Positions 41,322-55,187 of a stretch of 64,000 bases of DNA are shown here, piece by piece. Source of the stretch: Candidatus Bathyarchaeota archaeon. GTDB lineage: Archaea; Thermoproteota; Bathyarchaeia; 40CM-2-53-6. The position numbers and the translations under genes are program-made. Each line of letters opens with the position of its first letter. Position 1 is the first letter of the stretch. The stretch is taken from NCBI GenBank assembly GCA_005884195.1, contig VBBP01000050.1, forward strand, positions 36,345 to 100,344, given 5' to 3'. The notes under the pieces were generated by a model that was given only the letters and a program-made list of their open reading frames with translations, was not told where the DNA came from and made no database searches.

Positions 41322-41351
41322 GGTGGGTTCCGGCCCTTCGGGTTGCCTTGT

Positions 41352-41401
41352 TTAGCTTATATGGAGGTGTTACTTTCTGAGCGGGTAACTTTGCCCGCTT
41401 C
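41352..41401 (+). promoter_or_regulatory. toroid-gene promoter with the second copy of the 18-bp dyad
   Basis: A CTTATATGG box (41356-41364) reads as a TATA-like element in both directions and may serve the toroid gene and hyuB. The dyad GCGGGTAACTTTGCCCGC occupies 41381-41398 and is followed by TTC, identical over 21 bases to the copy at 38465. It overlaps the likely TTG start at 41391. Confidence 0.65.
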
Positions 41402-42815
41402 GAGAGTTCCCGTAGTTCTGACTATCTTGATCGTTCTATCCGCCGCAGCAATCACAATTCCTGCCTACCACCCTCCGATTGCAGGTCAGCCGATTGCACG
41501 ATTAGCTCCCTCTACTTTTTCATCCGCGATAAACTCGGCTCTTCTATGGCTGGCACATAACCAGTCTATAGATGGCTCGTATGGAGCGTATCAAGAGCAC
41601 TTAGCCGCGGCTGCCGCTTACGCTCTATGGCTCAACAGCTCAAGTTCAGCAAAGGCAGCTCTGTCTTATTCATGGTTGGCACATCAACTGAACAGTTCGT
41701 CAGCCTGGTTCTGGGGTCAACACGGAGAGGCTGACGTGCCTGGAGCGGTGTTGTACAGTCTGGCTTCGAGCTCAAACAAAGCTCTCGTCAACATTACTTT
41801 CGTCGAGGACAGTCTTCTACAGTTCCAGAGGCCCGAGGGCGGTTTTGCAGGATACTACGATGTATCCTTGTCCCAGACAGTTACTAGCAGTGTCGACACT
41901 GACATGGCACTCTTCGCACTCACTAGCGCAAAGGCGATCCCTGTCTCTAATCAGACCAATGCGATCAACTACGTTCTCTCGCTTCAGAATTCTGACGGCA
42001 GTTTTAACCTCACTAGCAGTACGCGATTCGACTCGTTCTATTCTCTTGGTCCTGATTCTGTTAGCATCACCGCGTTGACCCTTCTCGCCCTGAAGGGTGC
42101 AGGGTTTTCGCATGATGATTCTCACGTTTCAAACGCGCTAACATTTCTCAGCACTGCAGCTTCTTCCGACTTTGATGGGCATGTGTACGCTGCAGCGATC
42201 TCCGCTCTGGCGTTCAAGGCCTACGACGAGCCTGCGAGCACGGTCACAGCAGCTGTGTACATTCTTTCTCAACAGAACATTGATGGTGGGTTCAGTGATA
42301 CTAGTCGCTCTTCTCATCCTCAATCGAATGCGCTTGATACAGGATGGGCCGCTATCGCGCTCGAGGCCAAATTCTCCGAGGAGGTTCCGCCGGCCACAAT
42401 AAACAGTCCACCCACGGCCGCCTTCGTCTACGATCCTGCATCGCCAAGCGTCGGGGTGACGGTTCATTTCGACGCGAGTTCCTCGCACGACTCGGATGGC
42501 GACCAATTATCGTATCTGTGGACCTTCGGCGACGGTTCCACCGCGGCTGGCTCGACCCCGAGTCATAGCTATTCTCAGCCAGGCAATTACACCGTCACCC
42601 TTACCGCGATGGATTCGGGGACTAACCCGGCAGATCTGTCCAACACCAAGTCTCAAACGGTAAAGGTTCAACCTGCAAATGTTCAGAATACCTCTGGGTT
42701 GCCCTTCACAACTGTGGGGCGGGCCATAGTTCTGGCACTTGTAGGACTAGCTGTCGTCGCCGGGGTCGCTGTCTATCTTGTCCGGAGGAGGGCTGCACGA
42801 CCAGCGACGGTCTAA
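41391..42815 (+). CDS. secreted alpha/alpha-toroid (squalene-cyclase-like) protein with PKD domain
   Basis: 474 residues from the TTG at 41391; ATG 41361 is also in frame but lies within the promoter box. A signal peptide (VPVVLTILIVLSAAAITIPAY) is followed by prenyltransferase/squalene-cyclase repeats, for example INYVLSLQNSDGSFNLTSS and VYILSQQNIDGGFSD, building an alpha/alpha barrel of about 290 residues. A PKD domain (LSYLWTFGDGSTAAGS with PGNYTVTLTA) and a C-terminal anchor (IVLALVGLAVVAGVAVYLV) follow. The barrel is the fold of the N-terminal domain of intrinsic factor and transcobalamin. Together with the DUF4430 protein it would recreate that two-domain corrinoid clamp. Confidence 0.78.
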   Translation: MPASRVPVVLTILIVLSAAAITIPAYHPPIAGQPIARLAPSTFSSAINSALLWLAHNQSIDGSYGAYQEHLAAAAAYALWLNSSSSAKAALSYSWLAHQLNSSSAWFWGQHGEADVPGAVLYSLASSSNKALVNITFVEDSLLQFQRPEGGFAGYYDVSLSQTVTSSVDTDMALFALTSAKAIPVSNQTNAINYVLSLQNSDGSFNLTSSTRFDSFYSLGPDSVSITALTLLALKGAGFSHDDSHVSNALTFLSTAASSDFDGHVYAAAISALAFKAYDEPASTVTAAVYILSQQNIDGGFSDTSRSSHPQSNALDTGWAAIALEAKFSEEVPPATINSPPTAAFVYDPASPSVGVTVHFDASSSHDSDGDQLSYLWTFGDGSTAAGSTPSHSYSQPGNYTVTLTAMDSGTNPADLSNTKSQTVKVQPANVQNTSGLPFTTVGRAIVLALVGLAVVAGVAVYLVRRRAARPATV

Positions 42816-46035: not shown

Positions 46036-47187
46036 ATGACAATTCACGTTCTCCTGACAGCCGACAATCACCTAGACCCATCCGCGGTCCAGTACGGACC
46101 CAAGCGGTTCGAACGAAAGCGCGACTTCCAGCGTTGCTTCGAAATTCTAGTCAACTTCGCCCTGGAGAATAAGCCCGATATTCTTCTTATCGGTGGGGAC
46201 TTCTACGATGGCATTCTCCCCGGCAATCCTACAAGAGCGTTCGTTGCAGAACAGTTCAAGCGTCTACATGAGAAGAACATCAAAACCATTCTTGTAAGCG
46301 GTCATCACGATACTCCCCGCAGTGCAGAGCAAGGCGCATCCCCTCTCGCTGTTCATGCAAGGTCGGGACACGTCTACTTCATACAAGAACTACATCCAAC
46401 GAATAAGAAGTTCAATTTTGGAAACGAAACTGTCAACGTGATAGGGATGAGCCTCAACCCATCTCTACCAGCTGAAGCAGATCCCCTCGTCGGTCATGAG
46501 GTCAAGCGAGACGGCGACGTCAACATTTTCCTGACACACTATCCGATCGAAGGCTTCGACGGCTACTTTGGACAAGAAGTCCACATCCAGAAATCCTCCA
46601 TCCCCAGAAACCTCCAACTGTTCGCCTCAGGCCACCTGCACAATCATCAAAGAAAAACCATGAACGCGACACCAGTCGTTTATCCAGGAAGCACCGAGCG
46701 AGCCTCGTTCAATGAAGAAGGCGAGACGAAAGGGTTCGTCTGGCTCGAACTTGATAAGTCAGGAATAATCCAGCAAGAGTTCCATTCAACACCCGCCCGG
46801 CCCATGGAAACCCTCGAGTTCCGGGTCGCCGGCGAAGGAAGCCTTACACGACAAATAGAAGAAGCCTTAGAAAAGAGAATAGACGACGAGAAGATACTTC
46901 GTGTAAAAGTTTCCGGAAAAGTCACACTGAACCAGCTCTCTACCTACAAGCGATCCGCACTCTATACCTACGCAGAGGACAAGTTCTTCCACATCGAGTT
47001 CGACGAAGGACAACTCAACGTACTCACAATGGTCCCCTTGGAGTCGCTTCCAAAGACTACTCCGCTCCAAGAGCTAGACCGGACATTCCAGAATCTATTG
47101 ACAAAAGCAGGCGATCAGGATAGACCTCTGGTCCAAGAGGCCTGGAAGCTCACAGTTGCAAAGCTTCAGGAGGAGGGAGTCGACTGA
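46036..47187 (+). CDS. Mre11/SbcD-like nuclease with altered motif
   Basis: 383 residues. The calcineurin-like phosphoesterase motifs are LLTADNHLDPS (motif I), LLIGGDFYDGIL (II), VSGHHDTPRS (III), LTHYPIEGFDG (IV) and ASGHLHNHQ (V). Motif III is normally GNHD, where the Asn is a metal ligand; here it is GHHD, read from GGTCATCACGAT, so metal binding may be altered. The gene is followed by a Rad50-like ATPase whose probable CTG start overlaps its stop. The pair should process DNA ends, but see the ATPase for a membrane anchor. Confidence 0.85.
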   Translation: MTIHVLLTADNHLDPSAVQYGPKRFERKRDFQRCFEILVNFALENKPDILLIGGDFYDGILPGNPTRAFVAEQFKRLHEKNIKTILVSGHHDTPRSAEQGASPLAVHARSGHVYFIQELHPTNKKFNFGNETVNVIGMSLNPSLPAEADPLVGHEVKRDGDVNIFLTHYPIEGFDGYFGQEVHIQKSSIPRNLQLFASGHLHNHQRKTMNATPVVYPGSTERASFNEEGETKGFVWLELDKSGIIQQEFHSTPARPMETLEFRVAGEGSLTRQIEEALEKRIDDEKILRVKVSGKVTLNQLSTYKRSALYTYAEDKFFHIEFDEGQLNVLTMVPLESLPKTTPLQELDRTFQNLLTKAGDQDRPLVQEAWKLTVAKLQEEGVD

Positions 47188-49550
47188 AACTATTAAGCCT
47201 GTATGCTCACAACTTCAAGAAACTGAAATTCTCCCAACCACTACCCTTCACTGAGGGCATCTCGCTAATCACAGGATTGAACGAGAGCGGAAAATCCACC
47301 ATCCTCGACGCGATCCTCTTCGCTCTCTTCGGCCGCATGATACGCCCAAGCCAGAAACCCAGCAACGAAGAAATCCTGGCCTACGGAACCGGCGAAGCCC
47401 AAGTAAAACTCGAATTCGCCATCGGCGACCTCAAGTACCGAATAGTAAGAGAGGTTCACAAGACAAGACCGAACCGGGCACAGCTCCATGAGCTTGGGCC
47501 GAACGGTCGACAAAAGACAATTGCAACGACTGTAAACGACACCACCAGCGAAGTCGAACGACTTCTAGGAGGCATTACATACAACGAAATTGTCGCAAGC
47601 AGCGTCGTCGCACAGAAAGATCTCGAACGATTAATCAAACAAAGATTGGACGATAGAAGGAAAGTTGTCAACGTGTTCCTTAACCTAGACAGTTTCAACA
47701 GAGTGCAGGACCAGTTTGATACGGAGAGAGCTCGAATCGAAGGCACGACCCGGAATCCGGGACAGCTAACGGTTGAACGCGAGCGTCTCCAATCGCTTCA
47801 AGAACAAATGAAGAGGTACAAGGAAGCGGAGACCCAACTCTCAACGCTGGCAGGAAGAATCGAAAAGCTCAGGCTCGAACTTGTGGGCTTGGAAGAAAAG
47901 TTCGCGACCACAGACTCTCTGTACAAGACTCTGAACAAATACGATGAAGCGGTGAAGCTCCAAAGGTCTCTTCGGCAAGAGATTCAGGACAAGACGCGTC
48001 TTGCAGAGAACCTCCAGCGGCAACTATCCGGTATTTCGTCTCAACGAGAGGAACTGGAGAAAGCTCGATTGGAACTCGAACAGTTCTCTGGGCTTTCCGA
48101 AATAGAGTCCCAACTCACTCAAGCATCGAATATGCTTGAAGAATTTCAATCCGCCGAAATCCGCAGAGTCCAGTCCGAGGAGTCCAGAGATAATCTACAG
48201 GCTAAGATTGCGGAGAAGACGAAAGGCGTCTCAAGTTTTGGAAACCCGAAACCGTTAGACTCTAAGCCAAGAAGGGTCTGGACGTATCTCATTTCAACCT
48301 CAGCTCTGGGTGCGGGAGCCATTCTTGCCTTTTTCCTCAGTCTCCCACAAGTCGCAGTTGCCTTCGGATCTCTGGCTATAGTCTCCCTCCTCCTACTAAC
48401 ACGACAGATCGTCTCACTTTCACAACAAGCCAGCAGCTCGAGATACGAGCAGGAGCAGTTAGCCAGGCTGCAGCTTGTCCGCTCATGGGAGAACGAGCTC
48501 GCGGAGAATCAGCAAAACCTTTCAAAAATCCAACAGGACATTGCTGGAAGGTCCGAGAGCCTGATCGGAACACTGAGTTCAATCACACGATACGCTGCCA
48601 AGATGGGAGCGCCAAAAGACCCTGAGACCGCTTTCGAGACCGTATCCTCACTATTCGACAATGATAGGCAAACGCGTCAATCTCTGGAAGAGAAGGTCAA
48701 ATTACTAAGCCAGCAATTGAGAGAAGAACCCCAAATCAAAGAACGCCTCGACCTCATCCAGCGCGAGATCGAACAGGTCGAGAAGAAATTCGGCGCGGCT
48801 CCATTGCCGGAACTGCCAGAAGGCCTATCCTTCTCCGACACGCTCCTTGAAGAGACCGCTGAAGCGAGAGATACGCTAAAGGAATCCGTTTCGAGGAATA
48901 AGGCCCAGATCGAAGATTCAATTTCTCGACAGTTCGAACTACGCCAGCTACTAGAGGAGAACACGGGTCTCGATGACCAAGTTCAGACGCAAATGAAGAA
49001 GGTGATGCTCCTAGAGAAGGATTGCTCGGTCGTCAAGTTGTCAATCAAAGGACTGGAGCAAACTTCGGAGTCCTTGCGAAACCGTGTCAAGCCCCAGGTT
49101 GAACGCTACATGGGGCTTATTCTCCCCGTAATAACCTCCGGAAGATACAAGGCCGTGCAACTCGACGAAGACTACACTGTCAGAGTTTTCGATCCAGAGG
49201 CCGGAGAGTTCAAGCCCAAGGAAGTTTTCTCTGGGGGCACCGAAGACCAGCTCTTACTGGCAATGAGGCTAGCCTTCGCCCTCGCCCTGATCCCTCAAGC
49301 TAAGGGACATAATCCCGAATTCCTATTCCTCGACGAGCCCCTAGGCAGCTCGGACAGAGTCCGCCGAGAAGGAATTCTCACTCTACTCCACCAAGAACTC
49401 TCACAGAACTTCAAACAAATCTTTCTTATCAGCCATGTTGGGGATCTTGAAGCGGAGGCAGACACCATAATCCAGATGGACAACGGTATGGTTCGGGAGG
49501 TCGTCGGGAGAAAGTCTTCACCACGTCAACCGGTCGAGGTCCCTGCTTGA
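47184..49550 (+). CDS. Rad50-like ATPase with central transmembrane hairpin
   Basis: 788 residues from CTG 47184, which overlaps the nuclease stop as CTGA and has a strong AGGAGGAGGG eight bases upstream; the first ATG/GTG/TTG (47277) would cut into the ATPase fold and remove KLLSLYAHNFKKLKF. Walker A is GLNESGKST near residue 32; the signature FSGGTEDQLLLAMRLAF and Walker B FLFLDEPLGSSD are near the end. Coiled-coil arms occupy residues about 190-350 and 410-640. Between them, residues about 365-410, there are two hydrophobic helices (WTYLISTSALGAGAILAFFLSL and VAVAFGSLAIVSLLLLT) instead of a CxxC zinc hook. The layout resembles bacterial YhaN. Confidence 0.88.
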   Translation: MKLLSLYAHNFKKLKFSQPLPFTEGISLITGLNESGKSTILDAILFALFGRMIRPSQKPSNEEILAYGTGEAQVKLEFAIGDLKYRIVREVHKTRPNRAQLHELGPNGRQKTIATTVNDTTSEVERLLGGITYNEIVASSVVAQKDLERLIKQRLDDRRKVVNVFLNLDSFNRVQDQFDTERARIEGTTRNPGQLTVERERLQSLQEQMKRYKEAETQLSTLAGRIEKLRLELVGLEEKFATTDSLYKTLNKYDEAVKLQRSLRQEIQDKTRLAENLQRQLSGISSQREELEKARLELEQFSGLSEIESQLTQASNMLEEFQSAEIRRVQSEESRDNLQAKIAEKTKGVSSFGNPKPLDSKPRRVWTYLISTSALGAGAILAFFLSLPQVAVAFGSLAIVSLLLLTRQIVSLSQQASSSRYEQEQLARLQLVRSWENELAENQQNLSKIQQDIAGRSESLIGTLSSITRYAAKMGAPKDPETAFETVSSLFDNDRQTRQSLEEKVKLLSQQLREEPQIKERLDLIQREIEQVEKKFGAAPLPELPEGLSFSDTLLEETAEARDTLKESVSRNKAQIEDSISRQFELRQLLEENTGLDDQVQTQMKKVMLLEKDCSVVKLSIKGLEQTSESLRNRVKPQVERYMGLILPVITSGRYKAVQLDEDYTVRVFDPEAGEFKPKEVFSGGTEDQLLLAMRLAFALALIPQAKGHNPEFLFLDEPLGSSDRVRREGILTLLHQELSQNFKQIFLISHVGDLEAEADTIIQMDNGMVREVVGRKSSPRQPVEVPA

Positions 49551-51102: not shown

Positions 51103-51717
51103 TTGGCAGAAAAACGAACAGTTTCCAAACGCCAACTGGAAATTCAGCTTGGAAGGCTGGGGATCTTTCAGGCCCCCAAGTTGGGGCTCGAACAGTATCC
51201 CGTTTCTCCCGAAGTAGCGGCTGAACTGCTATACATGGCCGGATTCGAACATCGCGACTTGAAGGGTGAAACAATCGATCTCGGAACCGGGACTGGGCGT
51301 CTAGCGATTGGAGCTGCCATAATCGGGTCTGTGAAAGTCGTTGGCGTAGATATAGATGAGACAGCCATTGCTTTGGCGCGAGAGAATGCGGTGGCGGCCG
51401 GAGTCCAGGTCGAGTGGCTTGTGTCGGACATTGATGATGTTGAAGGAAAATATGACACCGTGATAATGAACCCTCCATATGGGACGCGGTCTCCCCATCT
51501 TGATGTCCGATTTCTTGAACGCGCTTTCGAGCTTGCCCCTATCTCGTACTCAATTCACAAGAGTTCGACTAGAGATTATCTTAGGGGTGTTATTGCAAAG
51601 AAAGGTCGGAGGGTTGACGCCGTGCGTAGCATGAGCCTAAACATTCCCAACCTCTTCCCATTTCATCACAAGAAATGGGAGAACGTCAAGGTCGACTTGT
51701 ATCGGATAATATCCTAG
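51103..51717 (+). CDS. METTL5-type rRNA N6-adenine methyltransferase
   Basis: 204 residues, TTG start directly after the dph2 stop. SAM-binding motif I is IDLGTGTGRLAIGA near residue 46, followed by VVGVDIDETAIALAREN and the catalytic NPPYGTRSPHLDVRFL near residue 125, the (N/D)PPY motif of adenine-N6 methylases. Sequence and length match METTL5 relatives, which modify one adenine of small-subunit rRNA. The N-terminal LEQYPVSPEVAAELLY is also typical. Confidence 0.88.
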   Translation: MAEKRTVSKRQLEIQLGRLGIFQAPKLGLEQYPVSPEVAAELLYMAGFEHRDLKGETIDLGTGTGRLAIGAAIIGSVKVVGVDIDETAIALARENAVAAGVQVEWLVSDIDDVEGKYDTVIMNPPYGTRSPHLDVRFLERAFELAPISYSIHKSSTRDYLRGVIAKKGRRVDAVRSMSLNIPNLFPFHHKKWENVKVDLYRIIS

Positions 51718-54700
51718 GCTCCCTGCTTCTTCTCCTCCTCCTCCTCACTTGAGTCGGATGGTATTCTAAGGGACCCTCCTTGGTTTTGGACTAGTGGTTT
51801 GAGAGATGTCTCCGTTTTGACTGGAGATCCCAGTGAAGGCAGGCTCGGTGATGGATTGGAAATAGTTGTTACCACTGGCATTTTCGCATGTCTTGGACGA
51901 AGTTTGCCCAGCTGACGGCCCACCTTGCGAAGCAAGGCCGGTTGGTTTGACCCGCTCGGCCTGGATTTGCCACGCAGAAGTATGTATGTAGTCAGGAATG
52001 ACGTCACTCCAAGTATTACTCCAGTCCAGACGTTGATCCCAGCTAGAAGCTTTGAGCTTGTCTGGTTTACGAAGCCCTGGAGATACTGGTTGTTGATGTA
52101 GTCCAGATAGAGTACGAGTCCGAGCCCTACGATCGCAAAGGTTTCGACCGTTACTGCGAGCTTTGTTGTTATTGGAATGGGCGGTATGAGTTTCTCTTCT
52201 GGGGTGATTGGCACTCTTCTTATCCGTCCTGGGGCCCACCAGTTGAGCCGCTTCATGTGCCTCATTATTGATGGTACAAGATAGACTCGGGTGAGAGTTG
52301 CGTCGAGAATGACGACTATGAAGAATGCAAGTCCGAGCTGTTGTAGCATAGGTATTTCCGAGAGCATCATGGTTCCGAAGGCGCCTGCTGTCACTAGACC
52401 AGTGGCTGTGATTATGCCTCCAGTGCGCTCTACTGCAGTCTCGATGGCCTCATCATCTTTCGCGCCGCCAACCACATACTCCCTGATCCTGGTTACTAGG
52501 AATATGTCGTAGTCAAGTCCTAGTCCGAGCATTATCACAAGCAGCATGATTGGTAGTATCCAGATCAGTTCCATTCCAACGTAGGTGTGAAAAATGTAGA
52601 TGACCGCGGCCATCGCCCAGGAAATGCTGAGAAGTATCGTGAAGATAAGCCGGAGCGGAGTGAAGATCGAGCCCAGAGCGATCATGAGAACAACGAAGAC
52701 TCCGACGAGGACTAACGCTGTCATGTTGAAGTAGTCGGCTGCGCTTGAATTGGCAAGATCTGCGACAGAAGCAGTTTCTCCCCCTACAAGCATTGTGGAT
52801 CCAGCGAGCAGCTTGTCATTGCCCTGCAAACTATTGATGTTCTGCCGGATTTTTGTGAGCGTGGTGATGGCCTGGTCCGTGTAAGGCTCGTTGGACAGGT
52901 TAGCCCAGACCATTGCCGATTTCCCATCGCTTCCGAGGAAGGGCTTCATGCTTCTGATCATTGCTTGCTGTTGCGCCGTGTTTAGCTGGCTGAACGATGA
53001 GTAGGGGATCGGGTCGCCTGAAGGATGTGTAAGCCCATAGACTTTCGACACGCCGGAGATCGACAATGTCGAGTTCTCTGCATAGGAGAGGGATCGCAGA
53101 GCAGTGACGTTGATCCAATTGTCGGTTGCGAGCAGGACTGGCGTTTGCACTATCGTGTAAGTTGGGGTTATGGTGCCAGGTCCGAATCCTCGGACCATGG
53201 TGTTGTAGCCGGCCCTGCTCTCAAGAGAGTTTGGGACTTGGGATATGAGGTCGTGGCTTGTCTGCGAGGAAAGAACTGTGCTCGTGGCCGGCAAACTAAC
53301 GGCTAGCGCGACTATGAGGATTAGCTTGGAGTGTTTTGCGGTGAATCTTGCCGCTCGGGCATAGTAGCTACTGCTCTTGGCTTTCTTCTTTCTCCAGAGG
53401 CCTAGCCCACCTGGCCAGAACATCTTGTCCCCGAATATGGACAGAATAGCTGGAACTAATGTGAGGGCAACGAGCAGTGCTATCGATATGCCCATCATCA
53501 CAGCGATCCCGATAGACCGCAGCATTCCAAAGCCAGCAATGGCCAGGCTTCCGAATGCTATGACGACAGTTGCTCCACTCGTGGCGATGCTCTCGCCCGC
53601 CCAAGTAACTGCTCGTTCAACCGCATCTTTCTTTCCTCTTCCCATCCGCCGCTCCTCAGCGTATCTGCTGACGAGAAATATGCAGTAGTCCGAGCCTGCT
53701 CCGAACATGGCGACGGGCAAAAGCGTTAGGATCAGAAAGTGTACACTGGTGAACCAGGTGCCGATTACGTAGACCAGGCCGAAGGCTATGCCTACAGATA
53801 TTCCGATAGCGGATACGGGGATTAGCGGGGCTGCAAGTGACGCGAAGAATATGCCGACGATCACGATAATCAGGAGGACGGTGATGGGGTCTATGCGTTC
53901 CACGTCTCTGATCGATTCTGCTTCAATATCATAATTGAACGCCGGAGCGCCTGTAACATAGACGAGGAGATCGGTGTTGCTGAGGTTGTTCGCTTGTCTA
54001 ACGTCTGCTCTTATGCCGGCGATGCTGTTCTTGGGGTCGAGTCCTTTAGTTTTGAAATCCAGTATTAGCAACATAGTGTCGTTGGATCCCGAGATGAACT
54101 GGGTGTAGACATCGTGGCTTGGCTGGACTGGATAGCTCTTGATACTGTAGTTTCGAAGAAGTGTCCCTGCAAGGGTTGTAAAATCAACGAAATCTGCTGA
54201 GGCGCCTAGCAAATAGATCTCGCTGATGATGAAAGTTTGAGTTGGGGTGGCGTTGACCATTTTCGAGAAAGTGTTGATCACGAAGGTCTGAATCACGGCT
54301 GGGTCGTTCCAGTAATTGTTTGGACACGTGTTCGGGCAGAAGTTGTAGAGGTTGAAGAATTCGGCAGCGTCAACAAACAGGGTTCGGGATGACGCGTCAG
54401 TTATGCTTGACATGAAGAATGGTATTGTTATGTTGTAGTATGCTGGTTGAGTTACGAGGAGCGGGCTTCCTTTGGTCACGTTCTGGGCTCTGGCTAGTGC
54501 TGGCGCGACTATCGTGAGCTGTGTTTGAGTGTAGGTAGAAGCGGTGAATGTCTTGTTCCATGACTGGTAGAACAGGTTCTCGTATGCAAGAGCGATGGAC
54601 TGGTAGGCTTGGGGGGTTTGCGAAGATATGATTGGCCATGCGGACTGGTTGGCTTTCTGGTTGTAGGCGGCGACCTGTGCCTGTGTTATGTCGAAGGGTC

Positions 54701-55187
54701 CAGAGTTTACTAGGGTCGTCCACTGGGTTGCGTAGATCGCAGGTATGCCGAATTCGAGAGACGTGGCAAATCTGGTCAGGTTCTTCTCTTGATAGAGCTG
54801 GAGGTGAACCAGGCTGGTATAGCCGACGAGTAGCTGGTAGTAGATGTCGTAGATGCTTGTGACGTTGCTGAGGTTCGTAATGGTCCGGTCGTTATGGAGG
54901 GTCTTGTTGAACGTTAGAGTGAAATCGCGCACATCGTTGCCTCTCACGTCCGTTGAGGTGATTACCACGACGACGCTGCTGCCCTGGCTAATGCTGAACT
55001 CTTTGCTGACGATGGATTGAGCGATGCTGGACTCCGACGTCTTGGGGTTGTACGCAGTCTCCGTGTAGACGATAACGCTCTGAACCTGGAGAATGGCTGG
55101 GACGCTCAGCGCGAGGGCTACCAGCCAGATGACAAAGACCGCCCGGTTGTGCTTAATGATAGTACGGGCTAGCCTTGTAAAGAGCAA
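51714..55187 (-). CDS. large MMPL/RND-superfamily transporter
   Basis: 1157 residues. The two RND repeats carry FGAGSDYCIFLVSRYAEERRMG and LGLGLDYDIFLVTRIREYVVGG, the MMPL relay motif in each half. The first extracytoplasmic domain is unusually large (about 420 residues, rich in Tyr, Asn and Thr), and a tail of about 160 residues with two more helices ends in an acidic stretch (SDSSEEEEEKK). Cargo is unknown. Its stop overlaps the end of the convergent methyltransferase gene by four bases. Confidence 0.9.
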   Translation of the reverse strand: MLFTRLARTIIKHNRAVFVIWLVALALSVPAILQVQSVIVYTETAYNPKTSESSIAQSIVSKEFSISQGSSVVVVITSTDVRGNDVRDFTLTFNKTLHNDRTITNLSNVTSIYDIYYQLLVGYTSLVHLQLYQEKNLTRFATSLEFGIPAIYATQWTTLVNSGPFDITQAQVAAYNQKANQSAWPIISSQTPQAYQSIALAYENLFYQSWNKTFTASTYTQTQLTIVAPALARAQNVTKGSPLLVTQPAYYNITIPFFMSSITDASSRTLFVDAAEFFNLYNFCPNTCPNNYWNDPAVIQTFVINTFSKMVNATPTQTFIISEIYLLGASADFVDFTTLAGTLLRNYSIKSYPVQPSHDVYTQFISGSNDTMLLILDFKTKGLDPKNSIAGIRADVRQANNLSNTDLLVYVTGAPAFNYDIEAESIRDVERIDPITVLLIIVIVGIFFASLAAPLIPVSAIGISVGIAFGLVYVIGTWFTSVHFLILTLLPVAMFGAGSDYCIFLVSRYAEERRMGRGKKDAVERAVTWAGESIATSGATVVIAFGSLAIAGFGMLRSIGIAVMMGISIALLVALTLVPAILSIFGDKMFWPGGLGLWRKKKAKSSSYYARAARFTAKHSKLILIVALAVSLPATSTVLSSQTSHDLISQVPNSLESRAGYNTMVRGFGPGTITPTYTIVQTPVLLATDNWINVTALRSLSYAENSTLSISGVSKVYGLTHPSGDPIPYSSFSQLNTAQQQAMIRSMKPFLGSDGKSAMVWANLSNEPYTDQAITTLTKIRQNINSLQGNDKLLAGSTMLVGGETASVADLANSSAADYFNMTALVLVGVFVVLMIALGSIFTPLRLIFTILLSISWAMAAVIYIFHTYVGMELIWILPIMLLVIMLGLGLDYDIFLVTRIREYVVGGAKDDEAIETAVERTGGIITATGLVTAGAFGTMMLSEIPMLQQLGLAFFIVVILDATLTRVYLVPSIMRHMKRLNWWAPGRIRRVPITPEEKLIPPIPITTKLAVTVETFAIVGLGLVLYLDYINNQYLQGFVNQTSSKLLAGINVWTGVILGVTSFLTTYILLRGKSRPSGSNQPALLRKVGRQLGKLRPRHAKMPVVTTISNPSPSLPSLGSPVKTETSLKPLVQNQGGSLRIPSDSSEEEEEKKQGA

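Follow-up and report, generated by a model that had tools for sequence, protein, structure and literature searches.

A hookless, probably membrane-anchored Mre11–Rad50 pair in a Bathyarchaeia genome

Organization of the mre11–rad50 locus

The window, a stretch of 64,000 nucleotides from a Bathyarchaeia MAG (1.92 Mb, 95% complete), carries two overlapping genes whose products resemble Mre11 and Rad50. The genes and the main features of the second product are as follows:

46036..47187, + strand: mre11-like nuclease gene, 383 aa (Pfam Metallophos, NCBIfam Mre11_Sulfo)
47184..49550, + strand: hairpin-type rad50, 788 aa, likely CTG start (profiles, motifs, AlphaFold2, Foldseek)
47274..47297, + strand: Walker A GLNESGKS, residues 31–38 (conserved in the alignment of relatives)
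48276..48335, + strand: hydrophobic helix 1 of the tip, residues 365–384 (hydrophobicity, AlphaFold2 helix, dN/dS 0.049 for residues 365–411)
48345..48416, + strand: hydrophobic helix 2 of the tip, residues 388–411 (same evidence as for helix 1, with charge depletion in addition)
49227..49250, + strand: ABC signature FSGGTEDQ, residues 682–689 (alignment of relatives)
49320..49337, + strand: Walker B FLFLDE, residues 713–718 (alignment of relatives)

The product of the first gene is a Mre11/SbcD-like phosphoesterase, which matched Pfam Metallophos (2.6e-12) and, under the equivalog cut-off of that family, NCBIfam Mre11_Sulfo (1.6e-21). It has the motifs DNHLD (motif I), GDFYD, and GHHD, and its gene overlaps the start of rad50 by 4 nt. 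The rad50 frame is unbroken, and its likely start is CTG 47184, which overlaps the mre11 stop. The residue aligned to this codon is L, V, or M in the relatives. With TTG 47277, the first start on the list and the one that a gene caller limited to ATG, GTG, and TTG would choose, the initial strands would be missing and the P-loop truncated.

The window protein has the bipartite ABC ATPase heads of Rad50, with Walker A, Q-loop, signature, and Walker B. Besides the Walker motifs and the signature, Q144, the D-loop SSD (722–724), and H751 are intact, and all of these motifs were invariant or nearly so in the alignment of relatives. By E-value, the best family was NCBIfam Rad50 (1.2e-35), at 122.8 bits against an equivalog cut-off of 700. 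The best Pfam match was AAA_23 (E 8e-18), and AAA_27 reached 21.2 bits, under its cut-off of 22. The closest solved sequences were those of archaeal Rad50, and the best solved match in Foldseek was Rad50 of the Chaetomium MRN complex (E 1.1e-20). Thus, the preliminary description of this DNA was correct in calling the protein a Rad50-like ATPase with intact ATPase ends.

A profile search of the genome found one Rad50-like and one Mre11-like gene. Rad50_zn_hook (PF04423) had zero matches in this 95% complete MAG, and a search of it for a second, canonical Rad50 found none. The other strong AAA_23 matches were the genome's own SMC (a frame of 1184 aa) and an SMC-like protein of 669 aa without a hook. 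The latter, an ATPase encoded on contig C41 beside a TFB-like gene, also lacks the hairpin and is possibly an archaeal SMC5/6- or ASRP-like protein.

The tip of the coiled coil

As a core part of Rad50, the zinc hook is considered necessary for joining the two arms. The window protein contains a single cysteine (C614) and therefore no CxxC, and the hook was also absent at the coiled-coil tip of all hairpin relatives. A CxxC hidden by a frameshift was rejected: none of the forward frames across the tip contains one, and relatives with 82–96% identity have an intact frame as well. Instead, the middle of the protein holds a hydrophobic pair, KPRRVWTYLISTSALGAGAILAFFLSLPQVAVAFGSLAIVSLLLLTRQ. Its Kyte–Doolittle maxima in a 19-residue window were 1.68 and 2.16, and on this simple scale helix 1 barely exceeds the usual threshold of 1.6. 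The mean over the 44-residue tip was 1.75, a value that was not reached when the arm region was shuffled 20,000 times (maximum 1.62). Charged residues made up 6% of helix 1, 2% of the loop, and 2% of helix 2, with 43% and 33% in the flanks; in the core of helix 2 (residues 389–407) they amounted to 2% versus 34% in whole proteins (34 relatives).

Among nine close relatives, the dN/dS ratio of the hairpin (residues 365–411) was 0.049, which is similar to that of the heads (0.057 and 0.021) and about one third of that of the arms (0.142 and 0.159) and of the linkers adjoining the hairpin (0.175–0.190). Thus, the hairpin is under strong constraint. The AlphaFold2 model, a monomer obtained with 34 sequences in the alignment (mean pLDDT 82.2, pTM 0.48), predicted long arm helices followed by tip helices at residues 365–384 and 388–411, which lie between two low-confidence linkers. 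Two further claims of the preliminary description therefore held: the protein has no CxxC hook, as its one cysteine and the forward frames at the tip indicate, and a hydrophobic hairpin takes the place of the hook, as supported by the hydrophobicity values, the shuffles, and the predicted tip helices. From the sequence and the model, we infer that this hairpin inserts into the membrane.

Distribution of the hairpin type and its gene context

The hydrophobic tip was found in every full-length close relative, and the hairpin rad50 gene is present in nearly all genomes of the window's family, where the profile search gave a hook match in 0 of 21 genomes. All 40 relatives sampled from several families of the phylum had the hydrophobic stretch at the tip and lacked CxxC, whereas in hook Rad50s from this class and phylum the pattern was reversed. 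The central hydrophobicity maximum was 1.93–3.05 in the 40 hairpin proteins versus at most 1.41 in 18 hook proteins, all counted as distinct proteins. Some divergent members, for example L117 and L069, had a single strong helix on the simple hydrophobicity scale. The profile search of the class and phylum was two-peaked: where the tip was readable, matches better than about 1e-40 lacked CxxC and had the hydrophobic stretch, and the weaker-scoring matches that were read had a CPxC hook and no central hydrophobic stretch. Hook matches occurred in 124 of the 256 genomes of the class, although some of these were short frames of 170–200 aa and not Rad50. On the tree of the heads, from which the tip was left out, hairpin and hook proteins were split by one branch with a support of 100/98. 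The loss of the hook spans several archaeal groups and is not an oddity of one genome.

In some genomes of family f48, a Rad50-like protein with a CPVC hook is present alongside the hairpin Rad50 operon; two such second ATPases (L116, 5331–7808; L118, 5297–7720) have no mre11 neighbor. A viral origin of the hairpin type was rejected, since the full-length relatives in viral contigs had CxxC hooks and no central hydrophobic helix pair. The bacterial plasmid relatives that were read likewise had CxxC and no hairpin, and were rejected as members of this type.

The herA–nurA–mre11–rad50 operon is known from thermophilic archaea, and its genes are co-transcribed in Sulfolobus (PMC2288612). The order nurA–herA–mre11–hairpin rad50 was found in ten loci from several families and in one more locus at the start of a contig, and a hook Rad50 occupies the same operon slot in five loci of sister lineages within the class. 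In the window's family, the mre11–rad50 pair is unlinked from nurA and herA; in the window's genome only mre11 and rad50 are adjacent, and weak matches to NurA and HerA occur together on another contig (C38), separated by about 1.2 kb. The search for a canonical rad50–mre11–herA–nurA cluster elsewhere in the genome, as the preliminary description had proposed, returned the window pair as the only Rad50 and the only Mre11. The window Rad50, as the only one of its genome, is therefore not accessory to a canonical rad50–mre11 pair. The window protein shares with the archaeal Rad50 of the classical operon the ATPase heads, the coiled-coil arms, and the adjacent Mre11, and most hairpin lineages have the same four-gene operon with rad50 in the same slot. 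It differs in having a conserved hydrophobic tip hairpin and no CxxC zinc hook.

The two types also differ in their Mre11 partners. Among the partners of hairpin Rad50s, motif I was almost always DNHLD, with DLHLD or DNHLN in the most divergent ones; the partners of hook Rad50s had DxHLG where the motif was recognized. Hairpin rad50 genes with enough flanking sequence had an mre11-like gene directly 5' in every case, usually overlapping. The pairing with Mre11 is strict, the metal-site motifs of Mre11 are kept, and the proposed pairing with an Mre11-like nuclease was supported both by the Metallophos match and by this gene order in the relatives. Motif III of the window Mre11 is GHHD instead of GNHD. 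The varying position is H, N, D, Q, E, or S among the archaeal Mre11s sampled; therefore, GHHD does not mark the hairpin type as DNHLD in motif I does.

Comparison with YhaN/YhaO and possible function

The likeness to the bacterial YhaN/YhaO pair (named SbcEF in PMC6452273), which the preliminary description had pointed out, was supported by a YhaN-like ATPase of the clostridial genus Monoglobus (L205, 701 aa). L205 lacks CxxC, carries a central pair of hydrophobic helices, and is encoded beside a metallophosphoesterase gene; its profile comparison with the archaeal hairpin family covered the hairpin as well as the two heads (99.3%, E 7.6e-21). The window pair has the same central hydrophobic hairpin and metallophosphoesterase partner, and further common features are the lack of a hook and a signature of the SGGT/STGT..Q type. 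However, the best Pfam match of L205 was AAA_27, in contrast to AAA_23 in the window protein, where AAA_27 remained below the cut-off; AAA_27 exceeded the cut-off in some relatives (42.2 bits in one of them), but in some hook Rad50s as well. On its profile scores, the window protein would be classed as Rad50 rather than YhaN. In addition, the YhaN loci examined had no adjoining HerA or NurA, and a proteobacterial record annotated as YhaN, from Sphingomonas (L211), had no hairpin. Another of the four YhaN-like proteins compared had a single strong helix.

When these four proteins were added to the tree, a branch with a support of 100/98 still set the hook proteins apart. YhaN formed its own group on the same side as the archaeal hairpin family, in a tree whose branches are long and in which YhaN is represented by just four sequences. 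A constraint that grouped the archaeal hairpin proteins with only the three hairpin-bearing YhaN proteins was weakly rejected (p = 0.034), because the fourth YhaN belongs with them. This topology would allow a single origin of the hairpin in archaea and YhaN.

The reading that we favor, with a probability of about 0.68, is that the window Rad50 and Mre11 form a hookless, probably membrane-anchored DNA-end-processing complex of this archaeon. Since the hook is lost and a conserved hydrophobic hairpin stands at the tip instead, the repair machine is probably fixed to the membrane and not free in the cell, and its mode of action is best read as that of YhaN/YhaO. The homology, motifs, and predicted fold of the heads suggest that they would bind ATP, DNA ends, and an Mre11 dimer as in ordinary Mre11–Rad50. 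Two antiparallel arm segments would run through the cytoplasm to the tip, where the short, nearly uncharged helix pair would insert into the membrane, with its short uncharged loop outside. Tip dimerization, for which zinc normally bridges two CxxC hooks, would give way to anchoring, to packing of membrane helices, perhaps between two Rad50s, or to both. In most carrier lineages, the operon also encodes HerA and NurA, and by analogy with the classical operon the four proteins may work together; breaks would then be captured and resected at the membrane.

An alternative, which we consider unlikely, is that the hairpin stays outside the membrane as a soluble hydrophobic module that, like the zinc hook or an SMC hinge, joins two Rad50 arms. 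In yeast, an SMC hinge can substitute for the hook, a dimerization module (PMC6969161), so the tip position calls for such a dimerizer. In the window protein, helix 1 has only moderate hydrophobicity (1.68) and many small residues. However, the two helices have 20–24 residues, roughly what a membrane-spanning helix requires, and they are nearly free of charge, with charged flanks and a short uncharged loop. Hydrophobicity rises to 3.05 in some relatives, and the arrangement is shared with the bacterial YhaN-like protein.

The roles in segregation, DNA uptake, or defense put forward in the preliminary description fared less well. A membrane machine for defense or uptake in place of a general repair complex is very improbable. 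The best PADLOC match was the Lamassu ATPase LmuB (92 bits), and YhaN (SbcE) of B. subtilis is reported to act in break repair and competence, according to the title of a paper cited in PMC4205851; however, the likeness to LmuB is a distant, generic Rad50/SMC-type similarity, on which ground a Lamassu system was rejected. The window locus has an Mre11 partner and a tip hairpin and no adjacent effector gene. Against such a role stand also the presence of the hairpin rad50 in nearly all genomes of the family, its status as the only Rad50, and its place in the resection operon elsewhere. A main role in chromosome anchoring or segregation appears more remote still: a membrane-attached SMC-like arm could conceivably hold DNA at the membrane, but the genome has its own SMC, and the strict pairing with Mre11 and the kept metal site do not fit this role. 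Because the window protein is the only Rad50 and its relatives hold the rad50 slot of nurA–herA–mre11–rad50, end resection is far more likely than any of these functions.

A broader and more tentative proposal is that hook and membrane-hairpin Rad50 may represent two ancient architectures. The hairpin, common to these archaea and bacterial YhaN/SbcE, would have arisen once, and in these archaea it would have wholly replaced the hook, with Mre11–Rad50–HerA–NurA resecting breaks at the membrane. A natural lineage that lacks the zinc hook and keeps the other components of the resection operon reveals what can be exchanged in Rad50, and for what, and the function of the Rad50 tip becomes directly testable by swapping hook and hairpin. 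If the favored reading is true, some archaea would carry out DNA-end resection at the membrane, and the bacterial YhaN/YhaO pair, which has been little studied, would gain an archaeal counterpart inside a well-studied pathway. An earlier description of a hookless or transmembrane Rad50 was not found in the open-access papers that were searched, and its absence there is weak evidence of novelty.

Two other genes of the window have counterparts near the rad50 locus of the same two relatives (L113 and L119). A large MMPL/RND-type transporter (51714–55187, 1157 aa) with a charged C-terminal tail lies 3' of the mre11–rad50 pair there as well. The predicted product of the other gene (41343–42815) is a surface protein in which repeats similar to a prenyltransferase/terpene-cyclase barrel are combined with a PKD-like domain and a hydrophobic anchor at the C terminus; a similar frame occurs in both relatives.
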